Shown here piece by piece: positions 5,249 through 27,490 of a DNA stretch of 64,000 bases. A program made the position numbers and the translations under genes. The notes beneath the pieces were generated by a model. It worked only from the letters and a program-made list of their open reading frames with translations, had not been told where the DNA came from and ran no database searches. The first letter of the stretch is position 1, and every line of letters begins with the position of its first letter. Source of the stretch: Veillonella rogosae JCM 15642 (GTDB taxonomy: Bacteria > Bacillota > Negativicutes > Veillonellales > Veillonellaceae); contig NZ_PPCX01000011.1 of the NCBI RefSeq assembly GCF_002959775.1, positions 62,001-126,000 on the forward strand, in the 5' to 3' direction.

Positions 5249-5287
5249 GGTATGCTTTATCTTACAAGAGATTACTAATTAATACTC

Positions 5288-6388
<1,101 letters not shown>

Positions 6389-10715: not shown

Positions 10716-12386
10716 TTAGTCTTCAAATACTTCGATAGCACCTTGTGCTGCAGAGGATACATGAAGAGCATATTTTTTAAGGTAACCAGTTACATTGGAT
10801 TTGAATGGTTTCAATGCAGCTTTACGACGAGCGATTTCCTCATCGGATACAGCTAATTCCAATTTACCGTTTGGAATGTCGATGTTGATGATATCCCCAT
10901 CTTCAACAACGGCGATTGTACCACCTGCCGCAGCTTCTGGAGATACGTGACCAATGGATGCACCACGAGTAGCACCAGAGAAACGACCGTCAGTCAACAA
11001 GGCTACGTCTTTATCAAGACCCATACCTGCGATCATGGATGTTGGTGTCAACATTTCACGCATGCCAGGACCACCTTTAGGGCCTTCGTAGCGGATAACT
11101 ACCACATCGCCTTTTACGATTTTACCACCTGTAATAGCTTCAACAGCTTCTTCTTCGCTGTTGAATACTTTTGCTGGACCAGAATGAACGAGCATATCCG
11201 CATCTACAGCACCCGCTTTTACAACGGAACCGTCTTCAGCAAGGTTGCCTTTAAGTACAGCAATACCACCAGTTTCGTGAACTGGATTATCCCAAGGATG
11301 AATTACGTCTTCATCAGCTACATAAGCAGCCTCAGCAATTTCACCTTGTGTTTTAAGTGCTACTGTTTGGCACTCTGTATGGAGACGACCATTTTCTGCT
11401 AATCGTTTTAATACTGCAGATACGCCACCTGCTGCATACAAGTCTTCGATGAAGTATACGCCAGATGGGGACAATTTAGATAATTGAGGTGTAATTTGAG
11501 CAATGCGATCGAAATCGTCTAAGGATAATGGTACACCTGCTTCGTGAGCAATGGCTGGCAAGTGAAGTGCTGTATTAGAGGAACCACCTAATGCCATATC
11601 GAGTGCTACCGCATTTTCAAAGGCTTCACGAGTCATAACATCTTTTGGACGAAGGTTCGCTTTTAATACTTCTACTGCTTGCATACCTGCTAATTTAGCC
11701 AAACGTAAACGTTCAGAGTATACAGCAGGGATTGTACCATTACCAGGAAGACCCATACCAAGAGCCTCTGTTAAGCAGTTCATTGTGTTTGCTGTGTACA
11801 TACCAGAGCAAGAACCACAAGTAGGACATGCATTATCTTCAATGCTTGCCAATTCTTCGTCGCCCATTTCGCCAGTTTGGTGTTTACCTACTGCTTCGAA
11901 CACGTCGGACAAACCAATTTTTTTACCTTTATGTACACCAGCAAGCATTGCGCCACCAGATACGAATACAGATGGAATGTTAAGGCGAGCCGCCGCAATT
12001 AACATACCTGGTACTACTTTGTCGCAGTTTGGAATGAATACCATCGCATCGAATGGTGTTGCCATTGCAGTTGCCTCGATAGAGTCAGCAATGATATTGC
12101 GTGTAACCAAGGAGTATTTCATGCCGATGTGGTTCATTGCGAGGCCATCGCAAATACCGATTGTATTGAACTCGATTGGCACACCACCTGCGTTGCGGAT
12201 GCCGTCTTTTACGGCTTGTACAATATTTTTCAGGCCTACGTGACCAGGGATAATCTCGTTGAAAGAGTTCGCAATACCAATGACTGGTCTGCCCATTTCT
12301 TCGTCAACGAAACCCAGAGCTTTTAGCAAAGATCTGTGTGGTGCACGTGCTACGCCTGTTTTTAAATTGTCACTTCTACAACTCAT
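10716..12386 (-). CDS. ilvD: Dihydroxy-acid dehydratase
   Basis: This 556-residue iron-sulfur enzyme converts dihydroxy acids to the 2-oxo acids that precede valine, leucine and isoleucine. The cluster cysteines are in NCDKVVPGM and [19 protein letters not shown], and the C-terminal catalytic segment reads [12 protein letters not shown]. The start is ATG at 12384-12386 with GAGGAG 8 bases upstream; a 15-codon upstream extension exists but has no ribosome site. It is the first structural gene of the operon. Its transcript must pass the terminator at 12444-12467, since I see no promoter in the 57 bases between. Confidence 0.97.
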
Positions 12387-12443
12387 GTTAATCTCCTCAC
12401 TTTTGAAAGCATCCACTTGGACAGCTTTCACAACGCATAAAAA

Positions 12444-12973: not shown

Positions 12974-14377
12974 TTATAGGATACCAAAGATCCACATACC
13001 AAGGGCGCCGCCCCAGAAGTGGATGAGGAAGCTTACCACGGAAATGGCAAGCCCAACGCGCCACCACGTACCTTGCGGTACATAACCAGCGCCAAAGAAG
13101 ATTGGCGTTACACCAGAGCTATAGTGAGTTAATGTACAACCAGGGCTGTTCATCAAACCAAAGAGCAAGATGGTAAACGGAATTGGTGCGCCCATAGCCA
13201 CGAGAATGGCCGCAAAGGCAGAGAACAAAGCTGTAATACGCGCCGTACCACTAGCGAAGAAATATTGGGAGTATACAAAGGTTGCAGAGATAATAAAGGA
13301 TGCCCAGAACCAGTCAATACCGGCAAGATGTTGGCTAACAAAGTTTGCAAAGACAGCAACTACACCGAGTTTACCTAGTAAGCCTGCCATGCCAACCAGA
13401 GTGCCCATCCAAATGAGGATATCCCAACCAGTGCGCTCACCTAAGATATCATCCCACGTAAGAGAGCCTGTTACTACACATGCAAGAACACCCATCATAG
13501 CCACTACGGTTGGATGAAGCTTAGTCCAAATAGCAGTAGCCCAAAGCAAGATACAAAGCACAAAGATTATAGCTACAGAAATTTCGGCTTTTGTAATAGG
13601 ACCAAGAGCATCTAACTCTTTTTGAGCCATCGCCGCCGCTTGTGGGGTTTCTTTAATTTCTGGAGGATAGATTTTATAGATGAACCAAGGCATCAAAATC
13701 ATACAAATCACACCAGGAATCACACCTGCTTGGAACCATTCCCACCAAGAAATATCATAGCCGAATAATTTCGCACCTAAGGACGTAATGAGCAAGTTAC
13801 CACTACATGCAGTCAAGAAGATCGTTACAGTAATAGTGTTGATGGTATGAGCCGTCGTCATCAAGTACGCTCCAATGCGACGAGCTGTCTTCCCATATGG
13901 TTCAGAATCAAAAGCTAAAGAAATATTTTGCACGATTGGGAATACGATACCACCCCCACGCGCCGTATTAGAAGGCGTCGCTGGAGAGATAATCAAATCC
14001 GTACAAGCTAATGCATAGGCTAGTTTTAAAGAACTTGTGCCGAAAGAACGAATCAAAGTATAGGCAATGCGCTTACCAAGACCAGAATTAATAATGCCTC
14101 TAGAAAAGAATACGGCCGCTACGATAAGCCACACATTCGCCTCTGCATAACCACCTAATGCTTGCACCATCGTAATAGACTTCGTGGCTACTGCTGCAAC
14201 GATACCAAAGAGCGCCATAATGCCAGTTGGCCAAGGGCGCAAAATAAAGCCTACAATGGTAGCCGTAAAGATAGCTAATAAATGCCACCCTTCAGGCTTA
14301 ATTGCCTCCGTGTGAGGCAAGAACCAGATCACTAAGCCCACCAAAACGGTAAGGGCCGCACGTGTAAAAGTATTCAT
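12974..14377 (-). CDS. DASS-family (SLC13-like) anion/dicarboxylate transporter
   Basis: This 467-residue protein has about 12 hydrophobic membrane segments and belongs to the divalent anion:Na+ symporter or antiporter family (CitT, TtdT, SodiT relatives). The two family substrate/Na+ motifs are visible: ISPATPSNTARGGG near residue 130 and NSPGCTLTHYSSGVTPI near residue 410. Likely substrates are C4-dicarboxylates such as malate, tartrate or succinate, which would suit Veillonella organic-acid metabolism, but the substrate is inference. The ATG has GGAGG 7 bases upstream. A hexamer array lies in the upstream region and may modulate expression. It appears monocistronic. Confidence 0.9.
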   Translation of the reverse strand: MNTFTRAALTVLVGLVIWFLPHTEAIKPEGWHLLAIFTATIVGFILRPWPTGIMALFGIVAAVATKSITMVQALGGYAEANVWLIVAAVFFSRGIINSGLGKRIAYTLIRSFGTSSLKLAYALACTDLIISPATPSNTARGGGIVFPIVQNISLAFDSEPYGKTARRIGAYLMTTAHTINTITVTIFLTACSGNLLITSLGAKLFGYDISWWEWFQAGVIPGVICMILMPWFIYKIYPPEIKETPQAAAMAQKELDALGPITKAEISVAIIFVLCILLWATAIWTKLHPTVVAMMGVLACVVTGSLTWDDILGERTGWDILIWMGTLVGMAGLLGKLGVVAVFANFVSQHLAGIDWFWASFIISATFVYSQYFFASGTARITALFSAFAAILVAMGAPIPFTILLFGLMNSPGCTLTHYSSGVTPIFFGAGYVPQGTWWRVGLAISVVSFLIHFWGGALGMWIFGIL

Positions 14378-14410
14378 AGAACCTCCATATCAAACTACAC
14401 AAATCAACTA

Positions 14411-14524
14411 TTACAGTTACCGTTACAGTTACAGTTACAGTTACAGTTACAGTTACAGTTACAGTTACAGTTACAGTTACAGTTACAGTTACAGTTACAG
14501 TTACAGTTACAGTTACAGTTACAG
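14411..14524. repeat. Hexanucleotide tandem array (TTACAG)x19 upstream of the DASS gene
   Basis: There are nineteen contiguous hexamers: one TTACAG, one variant TTACCG, then 17 perfect TTACAG copies. On the coding strand of the transporter it reads CTGTAA. It is bounded by the inverted octamers AATCAACT (14402-14409) and AGTTGATT (14523-14530). It ends 34 bases before the transporter ATG, between the start codon and a TATAAT box. Every unit contains TAA, so the array is not coding in that frame. Such simple repeats are prone to slipped-strand length change. Confidence 0.97.
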
Positions 14525-14527
14525 TTG

Positions 14528-14551
14528 ATTATAAAACGATATGGCGGTCAT
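14528..14551 (-). promoter_or_regulatory. Candidate promoter of the DASS gene, just upstream of the hexamer array
   Basis: A perfect -10 box TATAAT lies at 14528-14533 on the minus strand. A poor -35 (GTGTGA, 14546-14551) is at 17-base spacing and overlaps the terminator stem of the preceding gene. If used, the whole hexamer array would lie in the 5' untranslated region. Confidence 0.4.
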
Positions 14552-14569
14552 CACACATAACCGCCATAT
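14539..14569 (-). terminator. Terminator of the cupin gene
   Basis: A 10-bp stem ATATGGCGGT/ACCGCCATAT is followed by CGTTTTAT on the minus strand, directly after the cupin stop codon. Confidence 0.75.
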
Positions 14570-14572
14570 AGA

Positions 14573-15016
14573 TTAGCAACTTTCTAAGAATTCTTTGATC
14601 TTAGGATTCGCCTGTAATGTTTCCATTTCTTCTGAGGATAATAATTTAACCTTATCCCGCTCTTGGTTTACCAAACATAAGAAACCAATATAGTCCCCTT
14701 TATTAGCGCGAAACTGATGAATTGTCTTGCCTGGAATTTCAATAAAATCACCAGACTCTACATCATGAATTTCGTCTCCTAATAAAAGCTGACCTTTGCC
14801 TCGGAATATCATAACCATATGCGTATGCTCGTGATATTCTAATGTGGAATAGCCTCCTGGCAAACATTCAAAATAACGGAATTGGCATGGAATATCATAA
14901 GCACCATCGTATAGCACTTGACGTGTTACATCTTTAAAAGGACTACCATCTTGTTTATATACCAAGGTGTCGACGCCATCCCACTTGAAATTTTTAGCAT
15001 CAAACTTGCGTATCAT
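14573..15016 (-). CDS. Cupin-domain protein
   Basis: This 147-residue single-domain cupin has conserved cupin motif 1 (GGYSTLEYHEHTHMVMIFRGKG, residues about 54-75), giving metal-binding His/His/Glu candidates, and motif 2 (GDFIEIPGKTIHQFRAN), giving the fourth His. It is probably a small metal-dependent enzyme or a binding protein; the ligand or reaction cannot be assigned. The ATG has AGAGG upstream. It lies after the heavy-metal-domain gene and is separated from it by a terminator, so it probably has its own promoter. Confidence 0.85.
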   Translation of the reverse strand: MIRKFDAKNFKWDGVDTLVYKQDGSPFKDVTRQVLYDGAYDIPCQFRYFECLPGGYSTLEYHEHTHMVMIFRGKGQLLLGDEIHDVESGDFIEIPGKTIHQFRANKGDYIGFLCLVNQERDKVKLLSSEEMETLQANPKIKEFLESC

Positions 15017-15083: not shown

Positions 15084-15392
15084 TTATTTGAAGAAACGTT
15101 TCAAGGTTCCCATTAAACCATGACTATGTTGTTGTACACTATCTGCAACGCCTGTTACTTCAAAGCCAGTTTTTTCAATGGCCGTAGAAATAACCTCTAC
15201 TGCAGATTTAGTAGGATCAAAAGAAATCGTTACCGTCTTATCATCTAAATTTACTTCTGAACTCAATACGCCTGGTAGCGCAAGAGATGCCCCTTCTACT
15301 GCTTCCTTACAGTTGTTGCACATCATACCAGGTACAGTAAATACCTTTGTTACAACGCCATTATCTTCACCGCAACCACAATCTTTGCACAT
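15084..15392 (-). CDS. Heavy-metal-associated (HMA) domain protein
   Basis: This 102-residue soluble protein has an N-terminal Cys cluster (MCKDCGCGED) and one HMA domain (about residues 14-82) with metal ligands in GMMCNNC. The family fold is that of copper chaperones and the N-terminal domains of P-type ATPases. A His-containing tail, QQHSHG, precedes a basic end. It probably binds Cu(I) or another soft metal. No P-type ATPase is adjacent; the nearest gene is tatA, 14 bases upstream, suggesting cotranscription. The extra N-terminal cysteines are unusual for a simple chaperone. Confidence 0.85.
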   Translation of the reverse strand: MCKDCGCGEDNGVVTKVFTVPGMMCNNCKEAVEGASLALPGVLSSEVNLDDKTVTISFDPTKSAVEVISTAIEKTGFEVTGVADSVQQHSHGLMGTLKRFFK

Positions 15393-15406: not shown

Positions 15407-15649
15407 TTAATCGTTAGCTTCTTTATGTTTATCGTCGTTTTTAGCCCCTGCTGTTACGTCGATAGTAGTCGCCTTTTTAACGGCTTCTTTCGTTTCATCA
15501 ACAGCTTTTTTAGGGCCGGAAATAGCATCTTTAAATTCATTGATGCCCTTACCAATAGCTTTACCTACTTCAGGTAATTTACCAGGTCCGAAGATAACTA
15601 GAGCGATCACTAATATAACTATTAATTCAGGTGTTCCTATAGATCCCAT
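15407..15649 (-). CDS. tatA: Twin-arginine translocase subunit TatA/TatE
   Basis: This 80-residue protein has the TatA architecture: a short N-terminal membrane helix (residues 6-21, [16 protein letters not shown]), the [16 protein letters not shown] hinge and amphipathic helix, then a charged tail. It forms the pore component that moves folded proteins across the membrane with TatC. No tatC is adjacent. It starts 36 bases after the 6-phosphogluconolactonase gene, with AAGGAGA before the ATG. Confidence 0.93.
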
Positions 15650-15685: not shown

Positions 15686-16438
15686 TTAGTGTACATCATT
15701 ATAGGCTGCCTTGTCCACATACCAAGTGGCTTCTTGTGAAAGCACTGCCCCAGGTAGTACGCGACCAATGCGTTTTTCCCAAGGTAAATCCTCATAATCC
15801 TCGCGTTGGTACAACACCTTAGTAAGTGCGGTTTTCTTGCTTTCACCCGTTACAGTGAACCAAACAGCATCGGATTTAGCAAGGAAAGAAAAGGTCATAG
15901 AAATACGTTCCCATACCTTGCCATCCTCTACGGCCACTACCTCTTGATCTGCCACGCGAAGTGCATGAGAGCCTGCAAACAGCCCTGCTGTATGCCCATC
16001 TTCGCCTAGATCGAGCAATGCTAAATCGAGGCCAGATTTCTTGCAAGCCTTGAGCACATTCTTAATCTCTTTCTGATATTCCTCAGCCGCCTCTACAACG
16101 GTTCTAGAATCCGTATTGATTGGCAAGAAATGAGCCGCCCCTTTTGCCTTACAAAGCAAATGGGGTTTAACGCGATTAAAATAATTATCCTCGTGAGTTT
16201 GCGGCAAGAAACGCTCATCAGTCCACACAAAGAATATGCGCTCCCAATTGAGGCGCTCAATATATTCAGGGGAATTAAGCAATTCTAACAAACCATTAAC
16301 AACAGTGCCACCTGTGATACCAACAATGCACGATTCCGTGCGGCTAATCTCTTCATTGGTAAAAGCAATGAAATCCTCCGCTAATGCTTGGACTACATCA
16401 CTAGGACTGTCATAACATTTAATTGTATTTTGAGCCAT
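15686..16438 (-). CDS. pgl: 6-phosphogluconolactonase
   Basis: This 250-residue member of the SugarP-isomerase/NagB-like fold hydrolyses 6-phosphogluconolactone in the oxidative pentose phosphate pathway. The diagnostic motifs are GITGGTVVNGLLELL, VWTDERFLP and LLDLGEDGHTAGLF; the last distinguishes lactonases from glucosamine-6-phosphate deaminases. No zwf or gnd neighbour is present. The ATG has AGGAGG upstream. Confidence 0.88.
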   Translation of the reverse strand: MAQNTIKCYDSPSDVVQALAEDFIAFTNEEISRTESCIVGITGGTVVNGLLELLNSPEYIERLNWERIFFVWTDERFLPQTHEDNYFNRVKPHLLCKAKGAAHFLPINTDSRTVVEAAEEYQKEIKNVLKACKKSGLDLALLDLGEDGHTAGLFAGSHALRVADQEVVAVEDGKVWERISMTFSFLAKSDAVWFTVTGESKKTALTKVLYQREDYEDLPWEKRIGRVLPGAVLSQEATWYVDKAAYNDVH

Positions 16439-24129: not shown

Positions 24130-24205
<76 letters not shown>

Positions 24206-24208
24206 ATG

Positions 24209-24283
24209 TGGTGACCCGTCCGGGAATCGAACCCGGGATACCGCCGTGAAAGGGCGGTGTCTTAACCGCTTGACCAACGGGCC
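24209..24283 (-). tRNA. tRNA-Glu(TTC), copy 2
   Basis: The 75-base cloverleaf has acceptor GGCCCGT/ACGGGTC, anticodon loop CTTTCAC with anticodon TTC, and an encoded CCA. It is identical to the Glu gene at 24533-24607. Confidence 0.97.
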
Positions 24284-24290
24284 AGAAATA

Positions 24291-24366
24291 TGGCTCCTCG
24301 AGTAGGACTCGAACCTACGACCGATCGGTTAACAGCCGATTGCTCTACCGACTGAGCTATCGAGGA
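24291..24366 (-). tRNA. tRNA-Asn(GTT), copy 2
   Basis: The 76-base cloverleaf has acceptor TCCTCGA/TCGAGGA, anticodon GTT in the loop CTGTTAA, discriminator G and an encoded CCA. It is identical to the Asn gene at 24693-24768. In this half of the array there is no Lys gene between Asn and Glu. Confidence 0.97.
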
Positions 24367-24373
24367 ATGTTTA

Positions 24374-24448
24374 TGGAGCGGGAAACGAGATTCGAACTCG
24401 CGACCCCCGCCTTGGCAAGGCGGTGCTCTACCGCTGAGCTATTCCCGC
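24374..24448 (-). tRNA. tRNA-Gly(GCC), copy 2
   Basis: The 75-base cloverleaf has acceptor GCGGGAA/TTCCCGC, anticodon GCC in the loop TTGCCAA, discriminator T and an encoded CCA. It is identical to the Gly gene at 24774-24848. Confidence 0.97.
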
Positions 24449-24451
24449 ATG

Positions 24452-24527
<76 letters not shown>

Positions 24528-24532
24528 ATATG

Positions 24533-24607
24533 TGGTGACCCGTCCGGGAATCGAACCCGGGATACCGCCGTGAAAGGGCGGTGTCTTAACCGCTTGACCA
24601 ACGGGCC
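24533..24607 (-). tRNA. tRNA-Glu(TTC), copy 1
   Basis: The 75-base cloverleaf with anticodon TTC and encoded CCA is identical to the Glu gene at 24209-24283. Confidence 0.97.
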
Positions 24608-24612
24608 AGAAA

Positions 24613-24688
24613 TGGTGACTCACCCGCGACTCGAACGCGGGACACCCTGATTAAAAGTCAGGTGCTCTGCCAACTGAGCTAGTGAGTC
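24613..24688 (-). tRNA. tRNA-Lys(TTT)
   Basis: The 76-base cloverleaf has acceptor GACTCAC/GTGAGTC, anticodon TTT in the loop CTTTTAA and an encoded CCA. It is the only unduplicated tRNA in the array, lying between Asn and Glu of the first block. Confidence 0.97.
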
Positions 24689-24692
24689 AAAA

Positions 24693-24768
24693 TGGCTCCT
24701 CGAGTAGGACTCGAACCTACGACCGATCGGTTAACAGCCGATTGCTCTACCGACTGAGCTATCGAGGA
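24693..24768 (-). tRNA. tRNA-Asn(GTT), copy 1
   Basis: The 76-base cloverleaf with anticodon GTT and encoded CCA is identical to the Asn gene at 24291-24366. Confidence 0.97.
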
Positions 24769-24773
24769 ATGTA

Positions 24774-24848
24774 TGGAGCGGGAAACGAGATTCGAACTCG
24801 CGACCCCCGCCTTGGCAAGGCGGTGCTCTACCGCTGAGCTATTCCCGC
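24774..24848 (-). tRNA. tRNA-Gly(GCC), copy 1
   Basis: The 75-base cloverleaf with anticodon GCC and encoded CCA is the first tRNA of the transcript, about 19 bases after the proximal -10 box. It is identical to the Gly gene at 24374-24448. Confidence 0.97.
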
Positions 24849-27310: not shown

Positions 27311-27393
27311 ACGATCTCCCTTAACTAATTAATAGATCAGTTTACTTTTAGAATAATAGCATATCTTTAAAATACTATTATGTTTTTATAATA

Positions 27394-27438
27394 TTAGTAT
27401 ATTTTTAGAATTTTAGTATATTTTTAGAATTTTAGTAT
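27394..27438. repeat. 19-bp tandem repeat, 2.4 copies, upstream of arsA
   Basis: The unit TTAGTATATTTTTAGAATT occurs at 27394-27412 and 27413-27431, with a partial third copy to 27438. It lies 84-128 bases before the arsA start in an AT-rich stretch and could affect promoter structure. Confidence 0.75.
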
Positions 27439-27490
27439 ACACATGTTAGGGCATACACAATGTCACTTCAGCTACATAACCTGGATTGAG

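Follow-up and report, generated by a model that had tools for sequence, protein, structure and literature searches.

The 64,000-nucleotide stretch of Veillonella rogosae JCM 15642 DNA analysed here (the window) contains a tandem array of 19 hexamer units upstream of a gene for a DASS-family transporter, and the question raised by this locus is whether changes in the length of the array tune the transporter or are simply tolerated there. Phase-variable repeats have been best studied in the surface-structure genes of a few Gram-negative pathogens. With a fast-changing array at a metabolic transporter, and a related one at a regulator, a genus of anaerobic commensals would bring nutrient uptake into the range of functions tuned by repeats.

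Layout of the array and its flanks

The array separates a cupin gene from the transporter gene, and both genes are encoded on the minus strand. The features of this region, in window coordinates, are as follows:

10716–12431, minus strand: ilvD, beyond the DASS transporter gene
12974–14377, minus strand: gene for a DASS-family anion symporter, 467 aa (TIGR00785, PF00939)
14382–14386, minus strand: GGAGG, Shine-Dalgarno sequence of the transporter gene, outside the array (read from the sequence)
14402–14409: inverted octamer AATCAACT, exact reverse complement of 14523–14530
14411–14524, minus strand: hexamer array, 19 units (read off the sequence; Tandem Repeats Finder)
14523–14530: inverted octamer AGTTGATT, overlapping the last array unit and TATAAT
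14528–14533, minus strand: TATAAT, candidate −10 box, present in 6 of 6 orthologous gaps with the module
14539–14569, minus strand: hairpin ATATGGCGGTTATGTGTGATGACCGCCATAT, 13 pairs, loop GTGTG, terminator-like or regulatory (fold and scan)
14573–15016, minus strand: gene for a cupin-domain protein, 147 aa, upstream of the array (domain match)
15084–15392, minus strand: heavy-metal-associated domain gene
15407–15649, minus strand: TatA-like gene
15686–16438, minus strand: 6-phosphogluconolactonase-like gene

On the plus strand the units are ordered TTACAG, TTACCG and 17 × TTACAG, whereas on the strand of the transporter gene 17 perfect CTGTAA units adjoin TATAAT and are followed by CGGTAA and by a last CTGTAA nearest the gene. 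The complete order in the sense of the gene is the cupin stop codon, the 13-pair hairpin, CGTTTTATAAT, CAA, 17 × CTGTAA, CGGTAA, CTGTAA, TAGTTGATT, about 20 nt, GGAGG and ATG, with the array ending 33 nt before the start codon, the first base of which is 14377. The initial annotation, which described 17 perfect copies and two leading units between a TATAAT box (14533–14528 on the minus strand) and the start codon of a DASS transporter, agrees with these positions to the base, and the bounding inverted octamers that it noted are exact reverse complements of each other. Arms of at least 8 bp arose in 40 of 20,000 single-letter shuffles of the outer flanks. The transporter type was also confirmed, as the product scored 356.6 bits against NCBIfam TIGR00785 (cut-off 198.6) and 438.8 bits against PF00939, and its best match of solved structure was the plant chloroplast dicarboxylate transporter 1 (E = 3e-101). 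No open reading frame of at least 20 aa runs through the array (the two ORFs of the region 14380–14575 end at 14402 and begin at 14573, respectively), which bears out the earlier statement that changes in its length would affect no coding frame.

The array had also been called the longest simple repeat in the window. Tandem Repeats Finder reports it at 14411–14526 with a period of 6, 19.3 copies, 98% matches and a score of 225, but this score is exceeded by a single other row, a two-copy 322-bp tandem duplication with tRNA-like sequence at 24133–24785 (78% matches). A 19-bp tandem repeat rich in AT is present at 27346–27439, with 4.9 copies and 82% matches.

Variation across Veillonella and a second locus

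The genus search covered 14 genomes, 11 of which have a close orthologue of the transporter (at least 95% protein identity) and three distant paralogues only; each species is represented by one genome, and the differences described are therefore between species. The longest perfect run in the 11 orthologous gaps was 17 units in V. rogosae (G000), eight in G011, five in G010, two in G004 and zero in the other seven. The unit is CTGTAA in G000 and G011 and TTGTAA in G004 and G010. The gaps of G005 and G006 carry the hairpin, TATAAT and one variant unit, CAGTAA, with the perfect palindrome ATCAACAGTAACTGTTGAT where the array would be. The whole module is missing from five of the 11 loci: the spacing between the cupin and DASS genes is only 16 bp in G008, G009 and G012, the gap of G013 is 42 bp long and without the module, and in G002 the two genes almost touch. 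Seven further Veillonella records, in which the transporter is 73–90% identical and the upstream gene is a different one, contained at most one unit within 330 nt. What is new here is that the hexamer site differs between species both in copy number and in the letters of its unit.

In the six module-bearing genomes, the 20 nt upstream (TATGGCGGTTATGTGTGATG) have one variable position. The DASS genes of G004 and G010 are 78.8–80.3% identical to those of the other four genomes with the module, and in the DASS gene tree these two species lie across the midpoint root from G000 and G011, the forks that place G000 having 92–93% bootstrap support. The presence of arrays on both sides of the root suggests that the site has either long been repeat-bearing or was re-expanded.

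In three of 11 genomes a second leader, unrelated to that of the DASS gene, carries an array of the same unit family; it belongs to a gene for a LysR-type regulator that follows an MFS transporter gene. The array begins 2 nt after a TATAAT, and its forms, given in gene sense, are:

L099 (G005), 5264–5317: 9 × TTGTAA
L100 (G011), about 5393–5464: 12 × TTGTAA
L104 (G006), upstream of 1501: 13 × TTGTAG

The other eight of the 11 orthologous LysR leaders contain no array. In the LysR leader of G000 (L105), which has no hexamer array, successive copies of a longer repeat occur around TTAGTGAAAGCAATGGA..CGCAATTAAGTGATTC, about 60–210 nt upstream of 1501. The DASS genes of G005 and G006 are 94.7% identical, yet their LysR units are TTGTAA and TTGTAG, respectively. 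The flanks of the DASS and LysR leaders are dissimilar; what they have in common is the unit family, the sense orientation and the position of the array 2–3 nt after a TATAAT. From the frequency of TATAAT in upstream gaps, one this near would be expected by chance at about 1.7% per locus, a value for which both motif and window were chosen post hoc. Differences of whole units between orthologous loci are what slippage predicts, and slippage is the natural reading of these differences and of the wholesale replacement of the unit between sister species.

The array is not due to chance, because no hexamer array of at least three perfect copies was present in 1.6 Mb of DNA from five Veillonella genomes. 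This sample consisted of regularly spaced stretches (400 kb each from G000, G005 and G011; 200 kb each from G010 and G012) and contained no known array place; six other short arrays were seen in it, with periods of 5, 5, 7, 8, 9 and 12 and 3 to 4.4 copies. Three consecutive TTACAG units occur in G000 at the array site alone.

Promoter, folding and known repeat systems

The best −35 element for the TATAAT matches at only 3 of 6 positions, and this box is absent from the list of the promoter scan. Its position coincides with the tail of the hairpin that was called terminator-like by the scan, and it may be a terminator tail. However, G004 and G010 have lost the T-run that follows the hairpin but kept TATAAT, an observation more in line with a −10 box than with a terminator tail. 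Six of the 14 genus genomes have the hairpin core (up to three mismatches), each at a single place, which is always the DASS locus, and no similar sequence was found in plasmids, phages or viral contigs; a mobile element or a multi-copy REP/MITE-like repeat was rejected on these grounds. In Rfam the array matched microRNA models alone, with scores well short of the gathering thresholds (34.2 vs. 110), as expected by chance on repeats; this does not indicate a known RNA family.

For the leader of G000 the predicted fold is one long hairpin with the octamers paired at its base (z = −3.8 compared with dinucleotide shuffles); the hairpin grows with the number of units, from −12.5 to −37.7 kcal/mol between 1 and 24 units. 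Among 670 hexamer classes, CTGTAA ranks 347th in folding, TTGTAA 267th and TTGTAG 670th; within its own composition CTGTAA ranks 19th of 30, and 12 copies of TTGTAG do not fold. As the folding of CTGTAA is that of an average hexamer repeat, the hairpin is no evidence of selection, and the view that it is a selected property of the unit is unsupported. The predicted unpaired probability of the Shine-Dalgarno sequence (0.43–0.44) and of the AUG (0.12–0.17) was constant at every length tested from 2 to 30 units, with somewhat different Shine-Dalgarno values of 0.43 and 0.29 for 0 and 1 unit. The idea that array length determines whether the ribosome site is hidden is hence unsupported, and the constant accessibility speaks against on/off switching by this means. 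The initial annotation had proposed phase-variable or graded expression, brought about by changes in leader length or in the spacing of regulatory sites. The whole-unit differences between orthologous loci are in keeping with this proposal, and changes in array length would alter the leader, but on/off control through masking is not supported, although a graded effect may arise by another route; the −35/−10 spacing would be unaffected, as the array would lie downstream of the candidate −10 box.

In its mode of action, the array would be most like the uspA2 AGAT array of Moraxella catarrhalis and the hmwA heptamers of Haemophilus influenzae. The former is found 132 bp upstream of its gene (PMC7302503), with 6–23 copies in the 5′ untranslated region (PMC4679880), and in one strain mRNA differed up to 3.37-fold between 17 and 19 units, although in a second strain the effect of length was modest (PMC7302503). 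The two loci share a short-unit array upstream of one gene, the length of which is outside any frame, and the graded mRNA effect is that of uspA2 (PMC7302503); unlike uspA2, with its 4-nt unit, surface protein and data on strains and expression, the present case involves a 6-nt unit, a transporter gene and data between species only. Arrays of 7-nt units about 100 bp upstream of the adhesin genes hmw1A and hmw2A modulate expression by copy number (PMC2651432), and they are similar to the present array in having a unit longer than 4 nt in a promoter region, here a candidate one, but differ in unit length and in the type of gene. The same study described ten hexanucleotide SSRs, eight of them within ORFs; of the remaining two, which are non-coding, one (TTAAAA) varied between 2 and 3 units (PMC2651432).

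A further resemblance is to the TAACTGA heptamer direct repeats of Beggiatoaceae, Cyanobacteria and Bacteroidetes, which reach 43 copies in some species, have almost the same letters, and are intergenic and often sense-oriented before a gene (PMC4679880). However, these repeats have a 7-nt period and many sets per genome, mostly a few nt from the start codon (PMC4679880), whereas the unit here is of 6 nt and lies 33 nt from an ATG that has its own GGAGG; it does not replace the Shine-Dalgarno sequence, as the Beggiatoaceae form does, and we do not regard it as a member of this group. Neither Veillonella nor Firmicutes is mentioned in that text (PMC4679880), and searches for papers on Veillonella and repeats or phase variation turned up no report of such arrays, judging by titles and the openings of abstracts. 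We provisionally place the locus among the SSR contingency (phase-variable) loci of the promoter/leader type, which are marked by a short-unit tandem array well above chance, here 17 contiguous perfect units.

Possible graded tuning and its alternatives

The reading that we prefer, with a probability of about 0.45, is that of a slipping leader array which tunes the DASS transporter in a graded manner through leader length or a 5′ hairpin. The (YTGTAR)n array would be a hypervariable leader element that directly follows the candidate −10 box and is enclosed by a short inverted repeat; the number of its units would change through slipped-strand replication or repair. Transcription would probably start at the upstream edge of the array, so that copy number would set the length of the leader and the size of the 5′ hairpin and, through mRNA stability or promoter escape, could tune the transporter level gradually rather than on/off. 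A like array appears to have arisen separately upstream of the LysR regulator gene in related species. We count in favour of tuning the differences in copy number and unit letters between species, the constraint on the 20-nt upstream block, the presence of repeats in two leaders, the rarity of other arrays and the precedent of uspA2. It is weakened by the array-free LysR leaders (8 of 11), by the modest effect in the second uspA2 strain (PMC7302503), and by the lack of a clear enrichment of single units behind TATAAT (6 vs. 2.7 expected at the best offset in 864 kb), a result on which the idea of YTGTAR as a general post-TATAAT element was also dropped. Other points that count against tuning, viz. 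the module-free DASS loci (5 of 11), the missing −35 element, the accessibility that is independent of length above one unit and the ordinary folding of the unit, equally favour neutral slippage, which follows closely as the second choice and has somewhat better than one chance in three. Here, a short leader repeat would have seeded an array that grew and shrank without effect on the transporter, tolerated outside genes with the ribosome site spared. Yet 1.6 Mb of genus DNA lacks any other hexamer array while the same unit family is found at two unrelated leaders, both leaders share the adjacency to TATAAT and the orientation, and DASS-site arrays occur on either side of the midpoint root. The ladder of species with none, 2, 5, 8 and 17 units provides natural constructs for a direct test, and even a neutral array would be useful as a marker for strain typing.

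Two other explanations are improbable. The palindrome ATCAACAGTAACTGTTGAT at the presumed start could be a repressor operator, the half-sites of which are parted by growth of the array with a change in repression. Exact copies occur at the DASS locus of G005 and G006 and nowhere else in the 14 genus genomes, and the array is still surrounded by arms, 8 bp long in G000 and 6 bp long in G011; however, G004 and G010 lack the arms, the LysR arrays have no such palindrome, and near matches (2–3 mismatches) are present in 14 of 14 genomes, where a reversed control pattern matches 5 of 14. With no second exact copy no regulon of the palindrome is visible, and the idea of such a regulon was dropped. 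Still less credible is the reading of the repeated CUGUAA as a series of targets for an RNA-binding protein, a role suggested for the Beggiatoaceae heptamers. Read as TAACTG, the unit equals the first six letters of TAACTGA, and in both cases the repeats lie between genes, in sense orientation to the gene that follows (PMC4679880), but the period is 6 rather than 7, there is one array in G000 against 169 sets in the Beggiatoaceae study (PMC4679880), and the array stops 33 nt short of the start codon with GGAGG intact.

An extension of graded tuning, which we consider rather unlikely, is that (YTGTAR)n arrays 2–3 nt after a −10 box are leader dials of the genus' own, in which the first transcribed bases would be the repeat. 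They would have arisen at least two times (before the genes of an organic-anion transporter and of a LysR regulator), with a turnover so fast that sister species differ in copies and letters, and would provide heritable bet-hedging of metabolism, not of surface antigens. YTGTAR arrays of at least three units were found in 6 of 28 genomes of the family (a reversed control matched once, in G001), and those of at least four units in 7 of 380 Negativicutes genomes, five of which are Veillonella; in one of the two non-Veillonella genomes (G200) the copy sits inside a long open frame. Viral contigs with TATAAT and three YTGTAR units (20 contigs) are not comparable, as they have three units only, all inside frames of at least 101 codons. 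In another genus of the family, four CTGTAA units are present on the minus strand at 2689–2712 of L101 (G015:C50), a 3.3-kb contig on which the nearest ORF of at least 80 aa is about 1 kb away; the contig also carries an ORF with a YadA anchor domain, at a distance of about 1 kb from the units.
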